37,902 bases of DNA from Acetofilamentum sp. GTDB taxonomy: Bacteria; Bacteroidota; Bacteroidia; Bacteroidales; JAADGE01. Of the stretch, positions 1-5,942 are shown piece after piece. The DNA lies in assembly GCA_020720665.1 (NCBI GenBank), contig DYOF01000010.1, positions 1-37,902 on the forward strand, read 5' to 3'. The notes under the pieces are model-generated. The model saw nothing but the letters and a program-made list of their open reading frames with translations. It had not been told where the DNA came from and ran no database searches. Made by a program: the position numbers and the translations under genes. Every line of letters begins with the position of its first letter. Within the stretch, counting starts at the first letter, position 1.

Positions 1-1712
1 TTTGGGCACAAAGTCCCGAAAAAATGAGTTATCAGGCAGTAATTCGCAACACTGGCGATGCCTTAGTTACAAACACAAGTATAGGAATGCAAATCAGCAT
101 ATTACAAGGTTCTGCAAGCGGAACAGCGGTTTATGTTGAAACGCAAACCCCAACCACCAATGCCAATGGTTTAATAAGCATTGAAATTGGTGCAGGTACT
201 GTTCAAAGTGGAGATTTTACCACAATTGATTGGGCAAACGGACAGTATTTCATTAAAACAGAAACCGACCTAACAGGCGGAACTACTTACACCATAACTG
301 GCACAAGTCAACTGCTAAGCGTACCGTATGCTTTGCATGCAAAAACGGCAGAAACTTTAAGTGGTGGCATTACTGAAACCGACCCAATTTTTGTCGCATC
401 GCCGGCAAACGGAATACTAAACGGAGACATTTCCAACTGGAACTCGGCTTTTGGTTGGGGAAACCACGCAACCGCAGGTTACTTAACAAGTTTCACAGAG
501 ACCGATGCACTTTGGTCTGCCAGTCCATCTTATGGAATTACCAACACGAATATTGCCAACTGGAATTCTGCTTTTGGCTGGGGAAATCACGCAACAGCAG
601 GTTACTTAACAAGTTTCACAGAGACTGATGCACTTTGGTCTGCCAGTCCATCTTATGGAATTACCAACACGAATATTTCAAACTGGAATTCTGCTTATGC
701 TTGGGGAAATCACGCAACAGCAGGTTACTTAACAAGTTTCACAGAGACTGATGCACTTTGGTCTGCCAGTCCATCTTATGGAATTACCAACACGAATATT
801 GCCAACTGGAATTCTGCTTTTGGCTGGGGAAACCACGCTTCGGCAGGCTACTTAACAAGTTTCACAGAGACTGATGCACTTTGGTCTGCCAGTCCATCAT
901 ACGGAATTACCAACACGAATATTTCAAACTGGAATTCTGCTTATGCTTGGGGAAACCACGCAACCGCAGGTTACTTAACAAGTTATACCGAAACCGACCC
1001 CAGCGTACCCACCGGCACCCAAAGCGGCGAAATGCAGTATTGGAACGGAACTGCATGGGTATCTGTGGCAGCTGGTAATGAAGGACAGGTTTTAACTTTT
1101 TCAGGAGGCGTACCAACATGGACTACTACAGTAGGGCTTAATGATGTGCAAAATCCCAGCACCGGCGAAATATGGATGGACCGCAACCTTGGTGCCTCGC
1201 AAGTTGCCACAAGCAGCACTGATGCCAATGCTTACGGCGATTTATACCAATGGGGGCGTTTAACCGACGGACATCAAATACGTACCTCCGGAACAACAAG
1301 CACTCTTAGCTCTACTGATAATCCCGGACATAGCAATTTTATTCTTGCACCATCTTCACCTTACGACTGGCGCAGCCCACAAAACAATAATTTATGGCAG
1401 GGTGTAAGCGGCATCAACAACCCTTGCCCAAGTGGTTACCGCCTGCCAACCGAAGCAGAATTGGAAGCAGAACGCCTAAGTTGGAGCAGCAACAATGCAG
1501 CCGGTGCTTTTGCCTCACCTCTTAAATTGCCCGTGGCAGGCTACCGCAACTACGGTAATGGTTCGCTCAGCGATGTGGGTTCCTACGGCATCTATTGGTC
1601 AAGTACCGTAGATGGTACCTACTCGCGGTACTTGTTCTTCAGCAGCAGCAATGCCAACATGAGCAGCAACCGCCGGGCGTACGGCTTCTCGGTGCGTTGC
1701 CTTAAGGATTAG
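1..1712 (+). CDS. FISUMP-domain surface fibre protein, probable DGR target (5' end outside window)
   Basis: The frame is open to the window edge. The codons before the first Met (base 24) read WAQSPEK and lead into MSYQAVIRN, a common start of the mature part of Bacteroidota surface proteins, so the signal peptide and true start lie upstream. Numbering from that Met, residues 1-120 form a beta-rich N-terminal domain, about 138-322 hold 41-residue repeats (NWNSAFGWGNHATAGYL type) resembling tail-fibre or trimeric-stalk modules, and about 378-562 are a FISUMP domain (GEIWMDRNLGA, CPSGYRLPTEAE, YWSST, GFSVRC), a C-type-lectin-like fold. This suggests a stalk with a ligand-binding tip displayed on the cell surface. 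The last ~57 residues look like a DGR variable region. GC content is clearly higher than in the genes after 2511, which hints at transfer. FISUMP call is firm; display and ligand are inference. Confidence 0.85.
   Translation, partial: WAQSPEKMSYQAVIRNTGDALVTNTSIGMQISILQGSASGTAVYVETQTPTTNANGLISIEIGAGTVQSGDFTTIDWANGQYFIKTETDLTGGTTYTITGTSQLLSVPYALHAKTAETLSGGITETDPIFVASPANGILNGDISNWNSAFGWGNHATAGYLTSFTETDALWSASPSYGITNTNIANWNSAFGWGNHATAGYLTSFTETDALWSASPSYGITNTNISNWNSAYAWGNHATAGYLTSFTETDALWSASPSYGITNTNIANWNSAFGWGNHASAGYLTSFTETDALWSASPSYGITNTNISNWNSAYAWGNHATAGYLTSYTETDPSVPTGTQSGEMQYWNGTAWVSVAAGNEGQVLTFSGGVPTWTTTVGLNDVQNPSTGEIWMDRNLGASQVATSSTDANAYGDLYQWGRLTDGHQIRTSGTTSTLSSTDNPGHSNFILAPSSPYDWRSPQNNNLWQGVSGINNPCPSGYRLPTEAELEAERLSWSSNNAAGAFASPLKLPVAGYRNYGNGSLSDVGSYGIYWSSTVDGTYSRYLFFSSSNANMSSNRRAYGFSVRCLKD
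435..988 (+). repeat. 123-bp in-frame tandem repeat (about 4.5 units)
   Basis: The marker acttaacaag recurs at 481, 604, 727, 850 and 973, an exact 123-base period (41 codons). Units are nearly identical at nucleotide level and alternate between two versions, one coding AFGWGNHA and one AYAWGNHA. The near-identity implies recent duplication or gene conversion and makes copy number likely to vary. It encodes the fibre shaft of the FISUMP protein. Confidence 0.95.
1539..1709 (+). other. Putative DGR variable region (VR) at the 3' end of the FISUMP gene
   Basis: Codon by codon, the positions that would be Asn in a template-encoded version are here TAC (1551, 1584, 1620, 1629, 1680), ATC (1590), TTC (1635, 1638), AGC (1569, 1641, 1662) and CGC (1671), with AAC kept at 1548, 1656 and 1668 and GAT at 1572 and 1611 (from AAT). 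Almost all end in C although the surrounding genome prefers T-ending codons. This is what adenine-specific mutagenesis of AAC codons produces. The final ~27 bases (GFSVRCLKD) contain few such sites and would be the region identical to a template repeat. No template repeat is visible in the window, so this is inferred from the codon pattern and the family context. Confidence 0.65.
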
Positions 1713-1746
1713 ACACTTTGATTTATTTTGACAATTTGACACTTAA

Positions 1747-1776
1747 CCATACCGTCCCGTAGGGCGGTATGGTTTT
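1747..1776 (+). terminator. Hairpin 35 bp after the FISUMP stop: terminator or DGR hairpin
   Basis: ccataccg (1747-1754) pairs perfectly with cggtatgg (1765-1772), and the interior ccc-gta-ggg extends the stem with one bulged T. Four T follow. It could be an intrinsic terminator. DGRs also commonly carry an inverted repeat just downstream of the variable region that promotes retrohoming, and the position fits that role. The sequence alone does not decide between them. Confidence 0.7.
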
Positions 1777-1808
1777 AATAGCTGCGAAGCAGGAAATTTT
1801 TTTGCTAA

Positions 1809-2309
1809 ATGACAATATTGGAAAAAATACAATGCTGTGCGGATAAAACTAAGTTTACTCTCTTTAAGGAAGGTTTGTTTTACAAATGTTATAATGAAGA
1901 TGCAATGGTTTTTACTCAAAGAGTAAGGGTGTATAAGGTAAACGGTAAACATGTAAAAAGTGTTGGTGCAGCAGTCTTTAGTTTGGGTTTTCCTGTGAGT
2001 GAGGTTGCAAAAGGGAATTTAAGTTTGGCAGGTGTTTCGGAAAAAATTGGAGCAAAGAGTCTTGAAGAAAGCGATGGAAATATAATTTTTTCGCTCAACG
2101 ATATTGTGATAAAAAAAGATTATGAAGCATGGAAAAATACCATACAAGAAGGAATTATTGAAGTAGTTAAAGAGCCGGCTACTCTATATCAGCGTCCACC
2201 CGATATAGCCGAGATAATATCAATGATAAAAAACTATGATTTAGCAAACAGCACACCAATGCAGGGATTAAGCTTTATACAGCAGTTGAAGAATCAGTTG
2301 AAAGTGTAA
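1809..2309 (+). CDS. Small DGR accessory-type protein, MutS domain I-like
   Basis: A 166-residue cytosolic protein without signal peptide or membrane segment. Residues 14-35 (KFTLFKEGLFYKCYNEDA) and about 55-70 (GFPVSEVAKG) resemble the FFxxGDFYExFxxDA core and the following GVPxH strand of the MutS mismatch-binding domain I, without the rest of MutS. Its position, just after a FISUMP gene with a variable region and just before a reverse-transcriptase start, matches DGR cassettes, where I recall MutS-like accessory proteins being described next to Avd and HRDC types. The start ATG at 1809 gives MTILEKIQ. Function in retrohoming is inference. The MutS resemblance is by eye and the residue matching the mismatch-wedge Phe cannot be confirmed. 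Confidence 0.7.
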   Translation: MTILEKIQCCADKTKFTLFKEGLFYKCYNEDAMVFTQRVRVYKVNGKHVKSVGAAVFSLGFPVSEVAKGNLSLAGVSEKIGAKSLEESDGNIIFSLNDIVIKKDYEAWKNTIQEGIIEVVKEPATLYQRPPDIAEIISMIKNYDLANSTPMQGLSFIQQLKNQLKV

Positions 2310-2391
2310 AGTTCATAAAGTGTAAAGTAGGTACTTTACAAACTTTCCGAACTTTAAACTTTATGAACTTTAAACTTTATGAACTTTAAAC
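2308..2391 (+). repeat. Inverted repeat plus 16-bp direct repeats between accessory gene and RT fragment
   Basis: A 21-base arm at 2308-2328 (aaagttcataaag...) is the reverse complement of 2351-2371 with one mismatch. The right arm is part of a 16-base direct repeat, gaactttaaactttat, at 2349, 2365 and, partly, 2381. In an intact DGR this gap would be expected to hold the template repeat, but nothing here resembles the variable region. Confidence 0.85.
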
Positions 2392-2399
2392 TAAAGCCT

Positions 2400-2507
2400 A
2401 TGGAAAGTTTTGAACAACTTCTTTATCAGTTACATTTGTCGTATTTGCAAGCCCGCAAAAACAAACGAAATACGCACAATCAACTGCGGTTCGAGATGAG
2501 TAAATAA
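2400..2507 (+). pseudogene. N-terminal fragment of a DGR-type reverse transcriptase
   Basis: ATG at 2400 opens a 35-codon frame ending TAA at 2505-2507. It begins MESFEQLLYQ and contains YLQARKNKRNT followed by LRFEMS. This matches the extreme N-terminus of bacterial group-II-like and DGR reverse transcriptases, where a (Y)xxARKxKR...xxFE segment precedes the finger domain. All catalytic parts (QGxxxS, YADD-like box) are missing. The stop lies four bases before the end of the convergent gene at 2511, so the rest was probably lost by a deletion or rearrangement with its breakpoint at about 2499-2510. The family call rests on one short motif, so it is probable rather than certain. Confidence 0.6.
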
Positions 2508-2510
2508 TGT

Positions 2511-5500
2511 TTAAAAAACGGCTCTGATATTCAAGCCTCCTGAATGTATAGTTTTATTTTCTTCTGATTTACGTCCGTTATAATTTAGTTCTATTTGTAA
2601 GTATTCAGAGATTTTTTTCTGCCGTAAAACTGACCAAATATAGTTACTTCCGGGTTTCAAACCTTCTAAAATTTCATAAGAAATTGATGAGTTTTCATTT
2701 CCTTTGAAATCCATATTTACATAGTCAAATTTGAAATTTATAATACCCTTTGTTCGGTCTGTTAAAATATATTCTGAACCTATACTGTATGATTTTAAAC
2801 CTTCTTCGCCGGTTTGATTGTTCTTATTTTTAATTTGAAAATGAATAATAAAATTTGATAATTTATTTATTTTTATATCGGTTGAAAAGTGATTTTCAGA
2901 ATTTCGGATGCTGTAATTATTATCGGTAAAAAACTCTGAACTATAGTTTTTAGTACCGTGTTTATATTCATTAGTTATTGTAATATTTTTGAAGTGTTGA
3001 TTAAGTGAATAACTAAAATAGTTGTTTTTTTTTGAGTCGGTTCCGTTAATCAGTAATAATTTGTTTCGGATATTAAAATATCCGAAATTAAATTTTGTTT
3101 TAGTTTTGAATATATTGTAATTCAGATTATTATTAAAATAATTGTTGAGTGATAATGTACTGCTGTCAGGCACTTGAATATTATAAAAAGGACTTTCGTT
3201 TGTAATTTTTCTATTAAACTTAAAAGCCGCTTTTTCAGAAAAACCTGTCAAAATTTTTTTCACACCCTTTTCATTGTTCCAAATTCTTTTAGGAATAATT
3301 TGCAATACATAATTAATAGTTTGATTATAAACAGGTTTGTATTCATTTGAAGGTAATGAAATTCTTATATAATTTGATTGGTCATTAAAATTTGCTTTTA
3401 CAAATTCGTTTAGTTCTTTTTGGTTGTTTTTATTAAAATCTTCCCAAGTAAAATATCCTTGCCCGTTTTGAACTTCAATATAAACAAATTCTTTTGCTTG
3501 TTCCAAACCCGTCATATGTTCTGCAAATAAATTATTTGTTATTGCACCTTTCAGCAATTGTGCCTTATAATCCATTTTGCCGGTTATATTTTTTTCTTGT
3601 TTAAAATCATTTATTGAATCAATTATATTAAGAATTCGGTATGAAACATTCGTTTTTAATTGCCGGTTTTTTGTATTTAAAATATTTGCTGAAAATTTAA
3701 AGTCGTGTCCTTCGGCTGATAAATTAAATTCAGAACCGTTCGGTTTAAAATCTTTACGGAATGTATAACTAAAACTATAAGGTATGATATGTTTTTCAGA
3801 TGATTTTAAATAAACTTCAGTTTGATTAAATTGATAAGAATTTGACGAAAGACTATCGTTCGGGTACATAATAAATTTATTTAGTTCACCGGAATTAGTT
3901 ACTCCGAAAATAAATTGCTTTCCGTTTGTTTCAATTTTAAATTGATAACGAATAAATGTAGTGTTCAAATCAGCTTGTTTCGATTCCAATAGATTAACAT
4001 CGACATATAAATTATACCTTTTTTTTCGTATATCTGCCTGAAACAAGTTTTTATAACTCGAATAGTCTTTATTTTTTGACAGAATATCTGTTGAGAATAT
4101 CAGTTTTCCGAAATTTTTTCTTTTATATTCTATGAATGAATATAAAAAATGTTCGTCTGTTGAAGACAGAAGGTTTTCAATGTTTCTGTCTCTTTCAAAT
4201 TCAGGGTTTCTGAATGATTCAAAAGCATTAAAATTATGATTTATGAACGAATAATCAGCACCGATATTTAATTTTGTAAAGCTTGTATCTTTATTCAAAA
4301 TATTGTATTTGAAACCGGTTTTTCCTGCAAAACCGAAATTATTTTTATCGCCGATATCTGAAAATGTATTCAAATCATTATTACTGACTGCTGATTCGAA
4401 ATACAGAAAAATCTTATGTTTAGCGTATGAAGCTCCAAAGTTAAGAACTTCCTTTTTTTGCGGACTGATTAACTTTTTAACCGGCTCGTAATTTCCTTGC
4501 GGAATACCATCCGAAGGTTGTATCCATTCATATAGTTTTCCGTTTAATGAAGATTGTAACCGGACATAGTTTCCTTTATTTTCTCCTACATATGAAAATC
4601 CGAGTCGGTATTTTGTTAGTGTGCTGTCAACAGAAAAAACATAAATATCTTTATATAATACATTGTTAATCAGCGTGTCAGATTTTTTATATAAAGGGTC
4701 TTCCGTAATTTGACTTACAACCGGGACGGCATTTAATACATTTGCATTTTCAATATCATCACCTATTTCAGACAAGACGATTTTTTGCTCATCGGTTAAA
4801 TCTTGCCTGATAGTTTGGTTTTTTGCATCAGATTCAGAGACCAGATTCAAAAAAAACCTTGAATTTTCAGTTTTAATTTTAAATTCAGAAGCTAATATAA
4901 ATCGAGCATAGCTCATTTCTGAATATTCAAATTCGGCAATAATACGAGAATCCTTTGTAATTAATTGTTGAGCGGTAAAAGTTAATTCGGCAGTGTTATA
5001 ATCAATAATATAATCATTATCATAGCCTCTGTTTAATAATTTACCGTTAATATAAATTTTTTCTGTTCCTGACAGAATAATAATAAAACTTTCCCCGTTT
5101 CCGCCGATAAGTTTATAAGGACCTTGATTCCCTTCAATTCCCTGAATTTTTTGACGATTGTAATTTCCCTTTGAAACCGATGTATTTACGGCAGAATATA
5201 CAGATTTTTTTTTATTCGTTTCAAAACGGGTTTCAAATCCGGCTCCTTGAACTTTTTTTGTGTAATTTAAAAAATATCCTTCGGGCTTTTTAATTTGAAA
5301 ATCACCGAAAATTAGTTTACTTTTCTTTCCTGTAAGTTCAATAAATACCTTGTCAAATTCTCTTAAATATTGTGAAGTCCCGTCTTCCTGAATCGGAATG
5401 TTATTGTCTGACAGATTGGCATTTATATATAAATCAGGATTTAGTTTTCCTGCTATTTGAAGGTTAAATTCAGAATTTACTGCGGCATTTTGATTATTTC

Positions 5501-5942
5501 CGAATCGAATTCCTCTTGAAATGCTTCCTGAGTTATTGAGTTCTGTATCAGAAAAAAAGTCTTCGGGTTTATCATTAATTTTGTAAGTTTTTCTTAATGA
5601 ACCGGATAAGCTGTCCTTAATTAAATCTGACGGTTTATGAGAATACGTATTTAAAAAGTTAATCGGAAATACACGGTATTTACATAATAAAATTGTTCCG
5701 TCTGTTATTGTCAGGGAATCGAAATAAATTATAGCCGCACCGTAGTTAAGTGTATAAATATCATCAGAAATAATCGAATCATTTTTTAAAAGAAAAAAAC
5801 TGCCGGGTATAATACTTAATGAATCTAATTTTAATGAAGTACCCGAGAACTCAATATTTTTTACTCTTAAATTACTTATATGCTGAGACTTTGCTATAAG
5901 AACGGAGATAATTAAAAAAACTATAATAAAGAATTTCTTCAT
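2511..5942 (-). CDS. Large outer-membrane beta-barrel protein, SprA/Sov-like N-terminal motif
   Basis: A 1143-residue exported protein with signal peptide (residues 1-19, ending AKSQ). After a beta-rich N-terminal domain, residues 142-203 carry SRGIRFGNN, SDNNIPIQEDG and EFDKVFIEL, a signature I associate with SprA/Sov-type and related large Bacteroidota barrels. The remaining ~900 residues are long runs of alternating polar and hydrophobic strands with many aromatic residues, ending in Phe (RAVF), as typical outer-membrane barrels do. It is far shorter than SprA (~2400 residues) so it is not SprA itself. The gene stands alone and its 3' end abuts the truncated reverse transcriptase. Its own C-terminus looks complete. 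Substrate or role unknown. Confidence 0.75.
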   Translation of the reverse strand: MKKFFIIVFLIISVLIAKSQHISNLRVKNIEFSGTSLKLDSLSIIPGSFFLLKNDSIISDDIYTLNYGAAIIYFDSLTITDGTILLCKYRVFPINFLNTYSHKPSDLIKDSLSGSLRKTYKINDKPEDFFSDTELNNSGSISRGIRFGNNQNAAVNSEFNLQIAGKLNPDLYINANLSDNNIPIQEDGTSQYLREFDKVFIELTGKKSKLIFGDFQIKKPEGYFLNYTKKVQGAGFETRFETNKKKSVYSAVNTSVSKGNYNRQKIQGIEGNQGPYKLIGGNGESFIIILSGTEKIYINGKLLNRGYDNDYIIDYNTAELTFTAQQLITKDSRIIAEFEYSEMSYARFILASEFKIKTENSRFFLNLVSESDAKNQTIRQDLTDEQKIVLSEIGDDIENANVLNAVPVVSQITEDPLYKKSDTLINNVLYKDIYVFSVDSTLTKYRLGFSYVGENKGNYVRLQSSLNGKLYEWIQPSDGIPQGNYEPVKKLISPQKKEVLNFGASYAKHKIFLYFESAVSNNDLNTFSDIGDKNNFGFAGKTGFKYNILNKDTSFTKLNIGADYSFINHNFNAFESFRNPEFERDRNIENLLSSTDEHFLYSFIEYKRKNFGKLIFSTDILSKNKDYSSYKNLFQADIRKKRYNLYVDVNLLESKQADLNTTFIRYQFKIETNGKQFIFGVTNSGELNKFIMYPNDSLSSNSYQFNQTEVYLKSSEKHIIPYSFSYTFRKDFKPNGSEFNLSAEGHDFKFSANILNTKNRQLKTNVSYRILNIIDSINDFKQEKNITGKMDYKAQLLKGAITNNLFAEHMTGLEQAKEFVYIEVQNGQGYFTWEDFNKNNQKELNEFVKANFNDQSNYIRISLPSNEYKPVYNQTINYVLQIIPKRIWNNEKGVKKILTGFSEKAAFKFNRKITNESPFYNIQVPDSSTLSLNNYFNNNLNYNIFKTKTKFNFGYFNIRNKLLLINGTDSKKNNYFSYSLNQHFKNITITNEYKHGTKNYSSEFFTDNNYSIRNSENHFSTDIKINKLSNFIIHFQIKNKNNQTGEEGLKSYSIGSEYILTDRTKGIINFKFDYVNMDFKGNENSSISYEILEGLKPGSNYIWSVLRQKKISEYLQIELNYNGRKSEENKTIHSGGLNIRAVF

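Follow-up and report, generated by a model that had tools for sequence, protein, structure and literature searches.

A remnant of an MSL-type diversity-generating retroelement, cut within its reverse transcriptase gene, in an Acetofilamentum genome

Targets that outlive the loss of their diversity-generating retroelement (DGR) are already known from Treponema denticola. Isolates without a reverse transcriptase (RT) and template repeat (TR) keep targets with adenine-biased variable regions, which are likely leftovers of DGR loss, and Table 1 of that paper lists 8 of 17 isolates with zero TR and zero RT (PMC4891356). In the BPP-1 DGR, a hairpin of the kind discussed below is required and its stem sequence is free to vary (PMC3240598). 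MSL (MutS domain I-like) and HRDC proteins are named among the known DGR accessory proteins (PMC10053308), and Fib_succ_major targets are listed among the DGRs of the human microbiome (PMC4159848). Furthermore, DGRs have been classed as active or inactive by their variation, an approach that misses targets remote from the RT (PMC8144416). A literature search for truncated, orphan or frozen DGRs gave no report on RT-truncated MSL-type DGRs among the matches listed (titles and abstract starts). Such a locus is described here. It lies at the 5' end of a contig from Acetofilamentum sp. (DYOF01000010.1, 37,902 nucleotides, referred to as the window), which is the entire contig C43 of a 237-contig metagenome-assembled genome (MAG, GCA_020720665.1) that is 99% complete. 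The interesting part is the clean anatomy of the remnant and the recurrence of such losses in relatives.

Anatomy of the remnant

On the forward strand, the window carries a FISUMP target gene (3–1712), a hairpin (1745–1774), an MSL gene (1809–2309) and an RT stub (2400–2498). A preliminary description, made from the sequence alone, had named these four parts as a target, an inverted repeat, a MutS-like gene and an RT start, and each of them is located where it was claimed. The proposed layout, a DGR minus its TR and catalytic RT, is borne out by intact relatives. The closest is L088 of Salinivirgaceae bacterium GH45 (JAQICC010000147.1), with the order target, hairpin, MSL, RT, Avd and TR, and gene order and sequence of the window agree with this intact MSL-type DGR as far as the cut. 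One refinement applies: Avd was removed as well, and the TR sits after Avd, downstream of the RT. The locus is a remnant of an MSL-type DGR, real and well resolved. It is very probably the 5' remainder of a disabled element whose target is now frozen.

The RT stub is contained in the open reading frame (ORF) 2379–2507. Its codons at 2400–2498 translate as MESFEQLLYQLHLSYLQARKNKRNTHNQLRFEM, and the L088 counterpart following MSL reads MESFEHLLYQLHLSYLQARKNKRNTHNQLRFEMYQEEG, with 96.97% identity over 33 residues. Intact RTs that share the N-terminus of the stub thus exist in relatives. The stub had been described as the first 35 codons of the RT; this holds for codons 1 to 33, and not for the last two codons and the stop (2499–2507).

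The target is fibre-like, with repeats and a C-terminal FISUMP domain. It encodes 569 aa and has lost its 5' end at the contig start, about 19 codons judged against the homologue in L084. The FISUMP (Fib_succ_major) region was analysed as a 184-residue query stretch (1158–1709), and the Pfam match covers residues 399–568 (about 1197–1706). Both family matches are near threshold, with 33.4 bits for Pfam Fib_succ_major (E 6.8e-8, just below the cut-off of 33.9) and 34.3 bits for NCBIfam TIGR02145 (cut-off 41.65). The C-terminal 184 residues share 71–77% identity with five aligned FISUMP domains adjoining full-length RTs (L087, L088, L092 twice and L093; the alignment omits L097). Together, these results bear out the suggested fibre protein with a FISUMP end. 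Matches within the same genus are distant, with at most 40% identity. The structure model of the domain, with a predicted local distance difference test score (pLDDT) of 33, was too poor to serve in a fold search. A sequence search of the PDB with the domain returned three antibody matches only, at chance level (E 0.19–0.35).

The variable region at the end of the target spans 183 bases (1527–1709) in the comparison with the L088 TR. Its position agrees with the earlier assignment, and the compared extent is slightly longer than the 1539–1709 claimed. Differences from the L088 TR occur at 21 of 57 adenines and at 5 of 126 other positions (Fisher P 2.2e-8), and all five non-adenine differences fall on third codon positions. 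When the same mismatches are classed by the window's own base, none of its 36 adenines is affected, as expected of a copy and not of a template. The concentration at adenines argues that a DGR of the L088 type diversified the target. The template repeat proposed as a check of the preliminary description was found in a relative instead of the host genome. Seven TRs were tried, all of them from relatives and none from the host genome, and the adenine bias is present with six. Besides L088, these are the TRs of L086 (27 of 59 adenines, 19 of 124 others), L087 (21 of 56, 10 of 127), L091 (22 of 56, 10 of 127), L092 (24 of 56, 21 of 127) and L093 (27 of 59, 21 of 124). For comparison, the loci's own pairs of variable region and TR show no non-adenine differences in L087, L088, the second target of L091 and the second domain of L092, and 3 of 124 in L093. 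Chance is excluded as the source of the variable-region pattern, by the Fisher P, and of the RT stub match. The TRs of G032 and G066 were considered as the template type and rejected, as their alignment to the variable region requires gaps and leaves many differences outside adenines.

The MSL gene encodes 166 aa and is apparently complete. The ORF gives a weak match to Pfam MutS_I (19.1 bits, cut-off 20.6), and its homologue in L088 clears the cut-off with 23.4 bits, which agrees with the proposed MutS-like small gene. MSL homologues were found in 5 of the 148 genomes searched, host included, and in none of 13 genomes of the same genus and 7 of the same family. No relatives of MSL were found in viral contigs, searched with the single sequence and with an alignment, or in phage records, searched with the single sequence, and a phage origin is unsupported accordingly.

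Just past the target stop codon, where an inverted repeat had been claimed, the hairpin begins after 32 nt. It has a 13-bp stem, including one G-T pair, and a 4-nt loop. In a search of 16 rows (without L089, L098, L100–L103 and the first domain of L092), the best inverted repeat past the target stop has a stem of 8–14 bp in 15 rows and of 7 bp in L096; the stems of L093 and L096 carry long loops and are doubtful. Stem sequences vary among loci and the pairing is preserved. Since T-rich sequence follows the hairpin, a transcription terminator is equally possible as its role. A second small hairpin, CTGC-GAA-GCAG (1782–1792), was read by eye and is apparently the counterpart of a CCGC-type hairpin in the relatives. 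Between MSL and the RT stub lies an AT-rich spacer with a repeated AAACTTTATGAACTTT unit (2310–2399), which was not seen between MSL and RT of L085–L089. A stretch with 77% similarity to this AT-rich spacer is located between MSL and TR in G032 (L010 9468–9557).

Missing machinery and the junction with host sequence

The remaining machinery was sought in the host assembly. With the RT of L088 as query, exactly one match is obtained (2400–2504, 35 residues, E 2.7e-14), and no RT past the stub is found. The query detects the stub, and its silence on the rest of the RT is therefore meaningful. Pfam RVT_1 has no match in the host genome, the control being matched in 3 of 14 genomes. A blastn search of the host genome for a TR, with 1500–1709 as query, returned the query itself and two short matches (E 0.887 and 5.76). 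Avd and a second FISUMP gene were likewise not found in the host genome. The preliminary description had left undecided whether the target is frozen or served in trans. These results favour a frozen target, given that no RT past the stub, TR or Avd was found in the host assembly.

Service in trans would make the locus a satellite, i.e., a duplicated piece of target, hairpin, MSL and RT start that a complete DGR in another part of the genome still rewrites. In favour of this, the window has an intact hairpin and an intact variable region, and duplicate targets with 5' MSL pieces are known in a relative, where the first of two targets in L091 precedes an MSL fragment. Remote targets are also described in the excerpted text on T. 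denticola (PMC4891356). Against this, a 99% complete host assembly holds no RT past the stub, TR, Avd or second FISUMP gene, and in Mesohalobacter the other DGR-like RT stretch (L110) has no blastn similarity to the RT-less L094 locus. A satellite target is therefore considered improbable.

The similarity to the RT stops at 2498, and the sequence shared with another contig of the same assembly, C111, starts at 2502. The junction between them (2499–2507) includes the stop codon at 2505–2507. Beyond it lies a convergent host gene on the reverse strand (2511–5942, 1143 aa), which has no Pfam match and is matched in 47 of the 99 genomes searched, host included. No downstream neighbour of this gene is common across the genus, in a comparison within the genus. 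The window from 2502 to 2750 is identical to C111 (L073 5177–5425) at 247 of 249 bases. On C111, the 3' end of the convergent gene adjoins fcl, presumably a GDP-fucose-synthase-like gene, instead of the DGR remnant. The C111 copy stops after 249 bp, where it meets a recurrent sequence of the genome that we take to resemble the end of an IS1634-type insertion sequence (IS) element. The duplicated 3' end reflects either a strain mixture or a duplication. The gcvP gene is single-copy and located on C111, which suggests that C111 belongs to the main genome bin and is compatible with both explanations alike.

With such a junction, the joint at 2499–2502 could have been created in assembly, as a chimera of host sequence and the end of a complete DGR. 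The window begins at a contig end of a MAG, the same host sequence is joined to fcl on C111, and the G+C content drops after position 1800. However, by eye only a few bases are common to both sides of the joint, and assemblers join across long exact overlaps. Moreover, a similar joint occurs in another MAG, in which the RT of L084 breaks off at codon 7 and abuts a convergent gene, and two strain-named records (L091 and L094) also show a retained target after RT loss. A chimera is thus very improbable. The G+C content is 41–50% over positions 1–1800, 25–35% after 1800 and 25–33% beyond 2700 (profile to 7800). The higher G+C content of the target region (1–1800) is consistent with acquisition from elsewhere.

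For the preferred reading, a disabled DGR with a frozen target, the following course of events is proposed. In keeping with established DGR biology, the RT would formerly have copied the transcript of the TR, making errors at its adenines, and the cDNA would have replaced the end of the target gene. Later, a rearrangement would have cut the element at RT codon 33, fusing the remnant to the neighbourhood of the convergent host gene and removing the RT body, Avd and TR. Since Avd and TR lie downstream of the RT in L088, one 3' truncation accounts for all three losses, and we infer a single event. The target, left with neither template nor enzyme, would hold its last version and evolve as an ordinary gene; it is presumably still expressed and useful.

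A variant compatible with this reading is that the piece arrived pre-truncated and was inserted as one unit between fcl and the convergent gene, C111 being the empty site of another strain. On C111, fcl stands directly against the 3' end of the convergent gene and the sharing begins exactly at 2502. The failure to find MSL in the same-genus and same-family genomes indicates that the element was probably acquired, which also suits this variant. On the other hand, the left border lies beyond the contig, and the C111 copy breaks off after 249 bp at an IS-like end, so that C111 may be a separate rearrangement. In L084, the frame of the neighbouring gene enters antisense DGR sequence, which resembles a deletion. 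Arrival in truncated form is accordingly regarded as rather unlikely, as a minority variant of the disabled-DGR reading.

Several points weigh against a disabled DGR with a frozen target. The host is a fragmented MAG and the window starts within the target, so an unassembled full DGR, serving the target in trans from within the 237-contig assembly, is possible. A more distant RT query found no match in the host genome and missed the stub itself; the absence of the RT is hence carried by the search with the L088 RT. The Avd search was run without a positive control. The junction is taken from the assembly and not from reads, and the same 249 bp beside a different gene on C111 raise the possibility that strains in the sample are not alike at this locus. 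Finally, with the TR of L085 the adenine bias of the variable region is not significant (15 of 36 adenines, 40 of 147 others, P 0.07). This TR (3559–3741) has 36 adenines, compared with 56–59 in the six others, and adenine codons are scarce in its 3' half; judged from this composition, it looks partly overwritten by a variable region.

Recurrent RT loss among relatives

An MSL alignment, scanned against genome contigs, yielded 20 MSL loci. A full-length RT, with a frame of 409–435 aa, is present in nine of them (L085–L089, L092, L093, L097 and L100), and two have an incomplete RT (a 237-aa frame in L098; the RT of L102 leaves the contig). The order FISUMP target, MSL, RT, Avd and TR is found in L085, L086, L087, L088, L092, L093 and L097. 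In L088, RVT_1, bAvd and MutS_I were confirmed by Pfam. In L089, the target side of which is at the contig edge, MSL, RT and Avd are present and a FISUMP-like match lies downstream. L092 has two FISUMP domains within one 803-aa frame beside a full DGR. A more distant arrangement, with the TR ahead of Avd and RT, occurs in L098 (contig G066:C23), L100 (contig G032:C646) and L102. The order target, MSL, TR, Avd and RT of G032 and G066 would imply that TR and Avd were lost between MSL and RT; this was overturned by the closer loci L085–L088, L092 and L093.

In the other nine, the locus lacks an RT: L084, in which only seven codons are left, L090, L091, L094, L095, L096, L099, L101 and L103. For seven of these nine, the L088 RT query found nothing anywhere in the genome (E 0.001). 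Two are from strain-named, non-MAG records, namely Flavivirga jejuensis (L091) and Mesohalobacter halotolerans (L094). The genome of F. jejuensis gives two weak RT matches only (28% and 26%), the translations of which, judged by motifs, do not look like DGR RTs. Its locus (L091 1600–6700) comprises two targets and a TR, with neither RT nor Avd, and the only differences between the second variable region and the TR are at 21 of 56 adenines. A further DGR-like RT (48%) with a repeat pair of its own is present in Mesohalobacter, without blastn similarity to the L094 locus. Outside the 20 loci, G123 (L008) carries a distant FISUMP-like end and an MSL piece, without RT.

The breakpoints were read by eye from translations. 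They differ between loci. The RT is cut at codon 33 in the window; in L084 the cut is at codon 7, where a convergent NUDIX gene adjoins. In other loci MSL itself is broken, at about codon 71 in L094 and L095, at 47 in L096, at 36 in L099 and at 43 with a frameshift in L101; the contigs end about 50 bp past the cut in L099 and about 1 kb past it in L095. In L091 and L103, MSL runs into the TR or the sequence ahead of it. The residues before the L091 TR resemble those before the L088 TR, which makes an internal deletion likely in L091. In L090, a full MSL and then an unrelated gene precede a TR-like repeat, for which 7 of 32 differences lie off its adenines. In a FastTree tree of 12 loci, the window is paired with the intact locus L088 (support 0.93), L099 is paired with the intact L087 (0.99), and the RT-less L084, L091 and L096 form a cluster (0.90). 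The pairing of RT-less with intact loci makes several independent losses likely.

Among the RT-less loci, open target frames are present in L084, L090, L091 (twice), L094, L095, L096 and L099, those of L090 and L094 reaching the edge of the stretch (L089, L098 and L100–L103 were outside this check). The target of L101 looks decayed. The adenine bias is present in all 12 RT-less rows (P 1.5e-12 to 1.8e-3). Against the best foreign TR, out of six after the 36-adenine L085 TR had been dropped (all seven TRs served for the adenine test of the window), non-adenine differences number 5–21 in the 12 RT-less rows and 10–25 in seven rows from intact loci. The window, with 5 of 126, is lowest, also relative to all seven intact-locus regions, which suggests a recent loss. 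From these counts, the DGR of the window was probably lost recently; this estimate depends on the TRs known and compares the window with the TR of another organism, a further point to be held against the reading.

A genome of the same order, G024, encodes a 1238-aa ORF (L131 4306–8022, reverse strand) with three FISUMP domains, each with a different DGR-type variable region, and has no RT match and no MSL match. It may tentatively be suggested that MSL-type DGRs act in a hit-and-run manner: they would diversify a FISUMP surface protein and be repeatedly destroyed at different points downstream of the hairpin, with the target kept and some frozen targets multiplied. If true, DGR loss would itself be under selection, as the step by which a successful binder becomes fixed.

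Several flanking features were noted by eye. L084, L091 and L096 resemble one another in the end of a neighbouring gene ahead of the target, and L088 and L091 do so in about 70 bp past the TR. A gene for a SYSVGQVVY-type protein lies ahead of the target in L084 (871–1386), L091 (1157–1666) and L092 (2254–3426). Downstream, a DUF4369/thioredoxin-like gene was seen at L088 4982, L090 1604, L091 6732, L093 5926, L094 3786 and L131 2084, an assignment for which Pfam was run on the L091 copy. These common neighbours hint at a larger conserved cassette. Elsewhere, two further DGR RTs that end early were observed in L048 (G086, 63–839), adjoining a short repeat near the contig end, and in L009 (G066, a 237-residue frame). 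Thus, it is not unusual for a DGR RT to be broken in these assemblies.

Significance and comparison with known systems

The window displays the exact anatomy of the death of a DGR, with a cut within the RT gene and the target, hairpin and accessory gene remaining. The nine RT-less loci among the 20 suggest that loss of the RT with retention of the target is common and repeated. RT-based surveys overlook such targets. Frozen targets also permit testing whether selection keeps variable proteins once diversification ends.

In the window as in the BPP-1 DGR, the variable region is followed downstream by a hairpin whose loop has 4 nt. According to the excerpted text, the BPP-1 DGR is functional, its loop consensus is GRNA and its stem has 8 bp, compared with CGTA and 13 bp in the window (PMC3240598). 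The leftovers of T. denticola share with the window an adenine-biased target and a genome with neither RT nor TR. They differ in organism and target, and the window keeps MSL and is cut inside the RT gene; the excerpt of that paper describes no RT stub (PMC4891356). The nearest system is L088, which has the RT body, Avd and TR that the window lacks. Both share the order target, hairpin, MSL and RT, the FISUMP domains are 77% identical, and the L088 TR is near-identical to the variable region of the window outside adenines.

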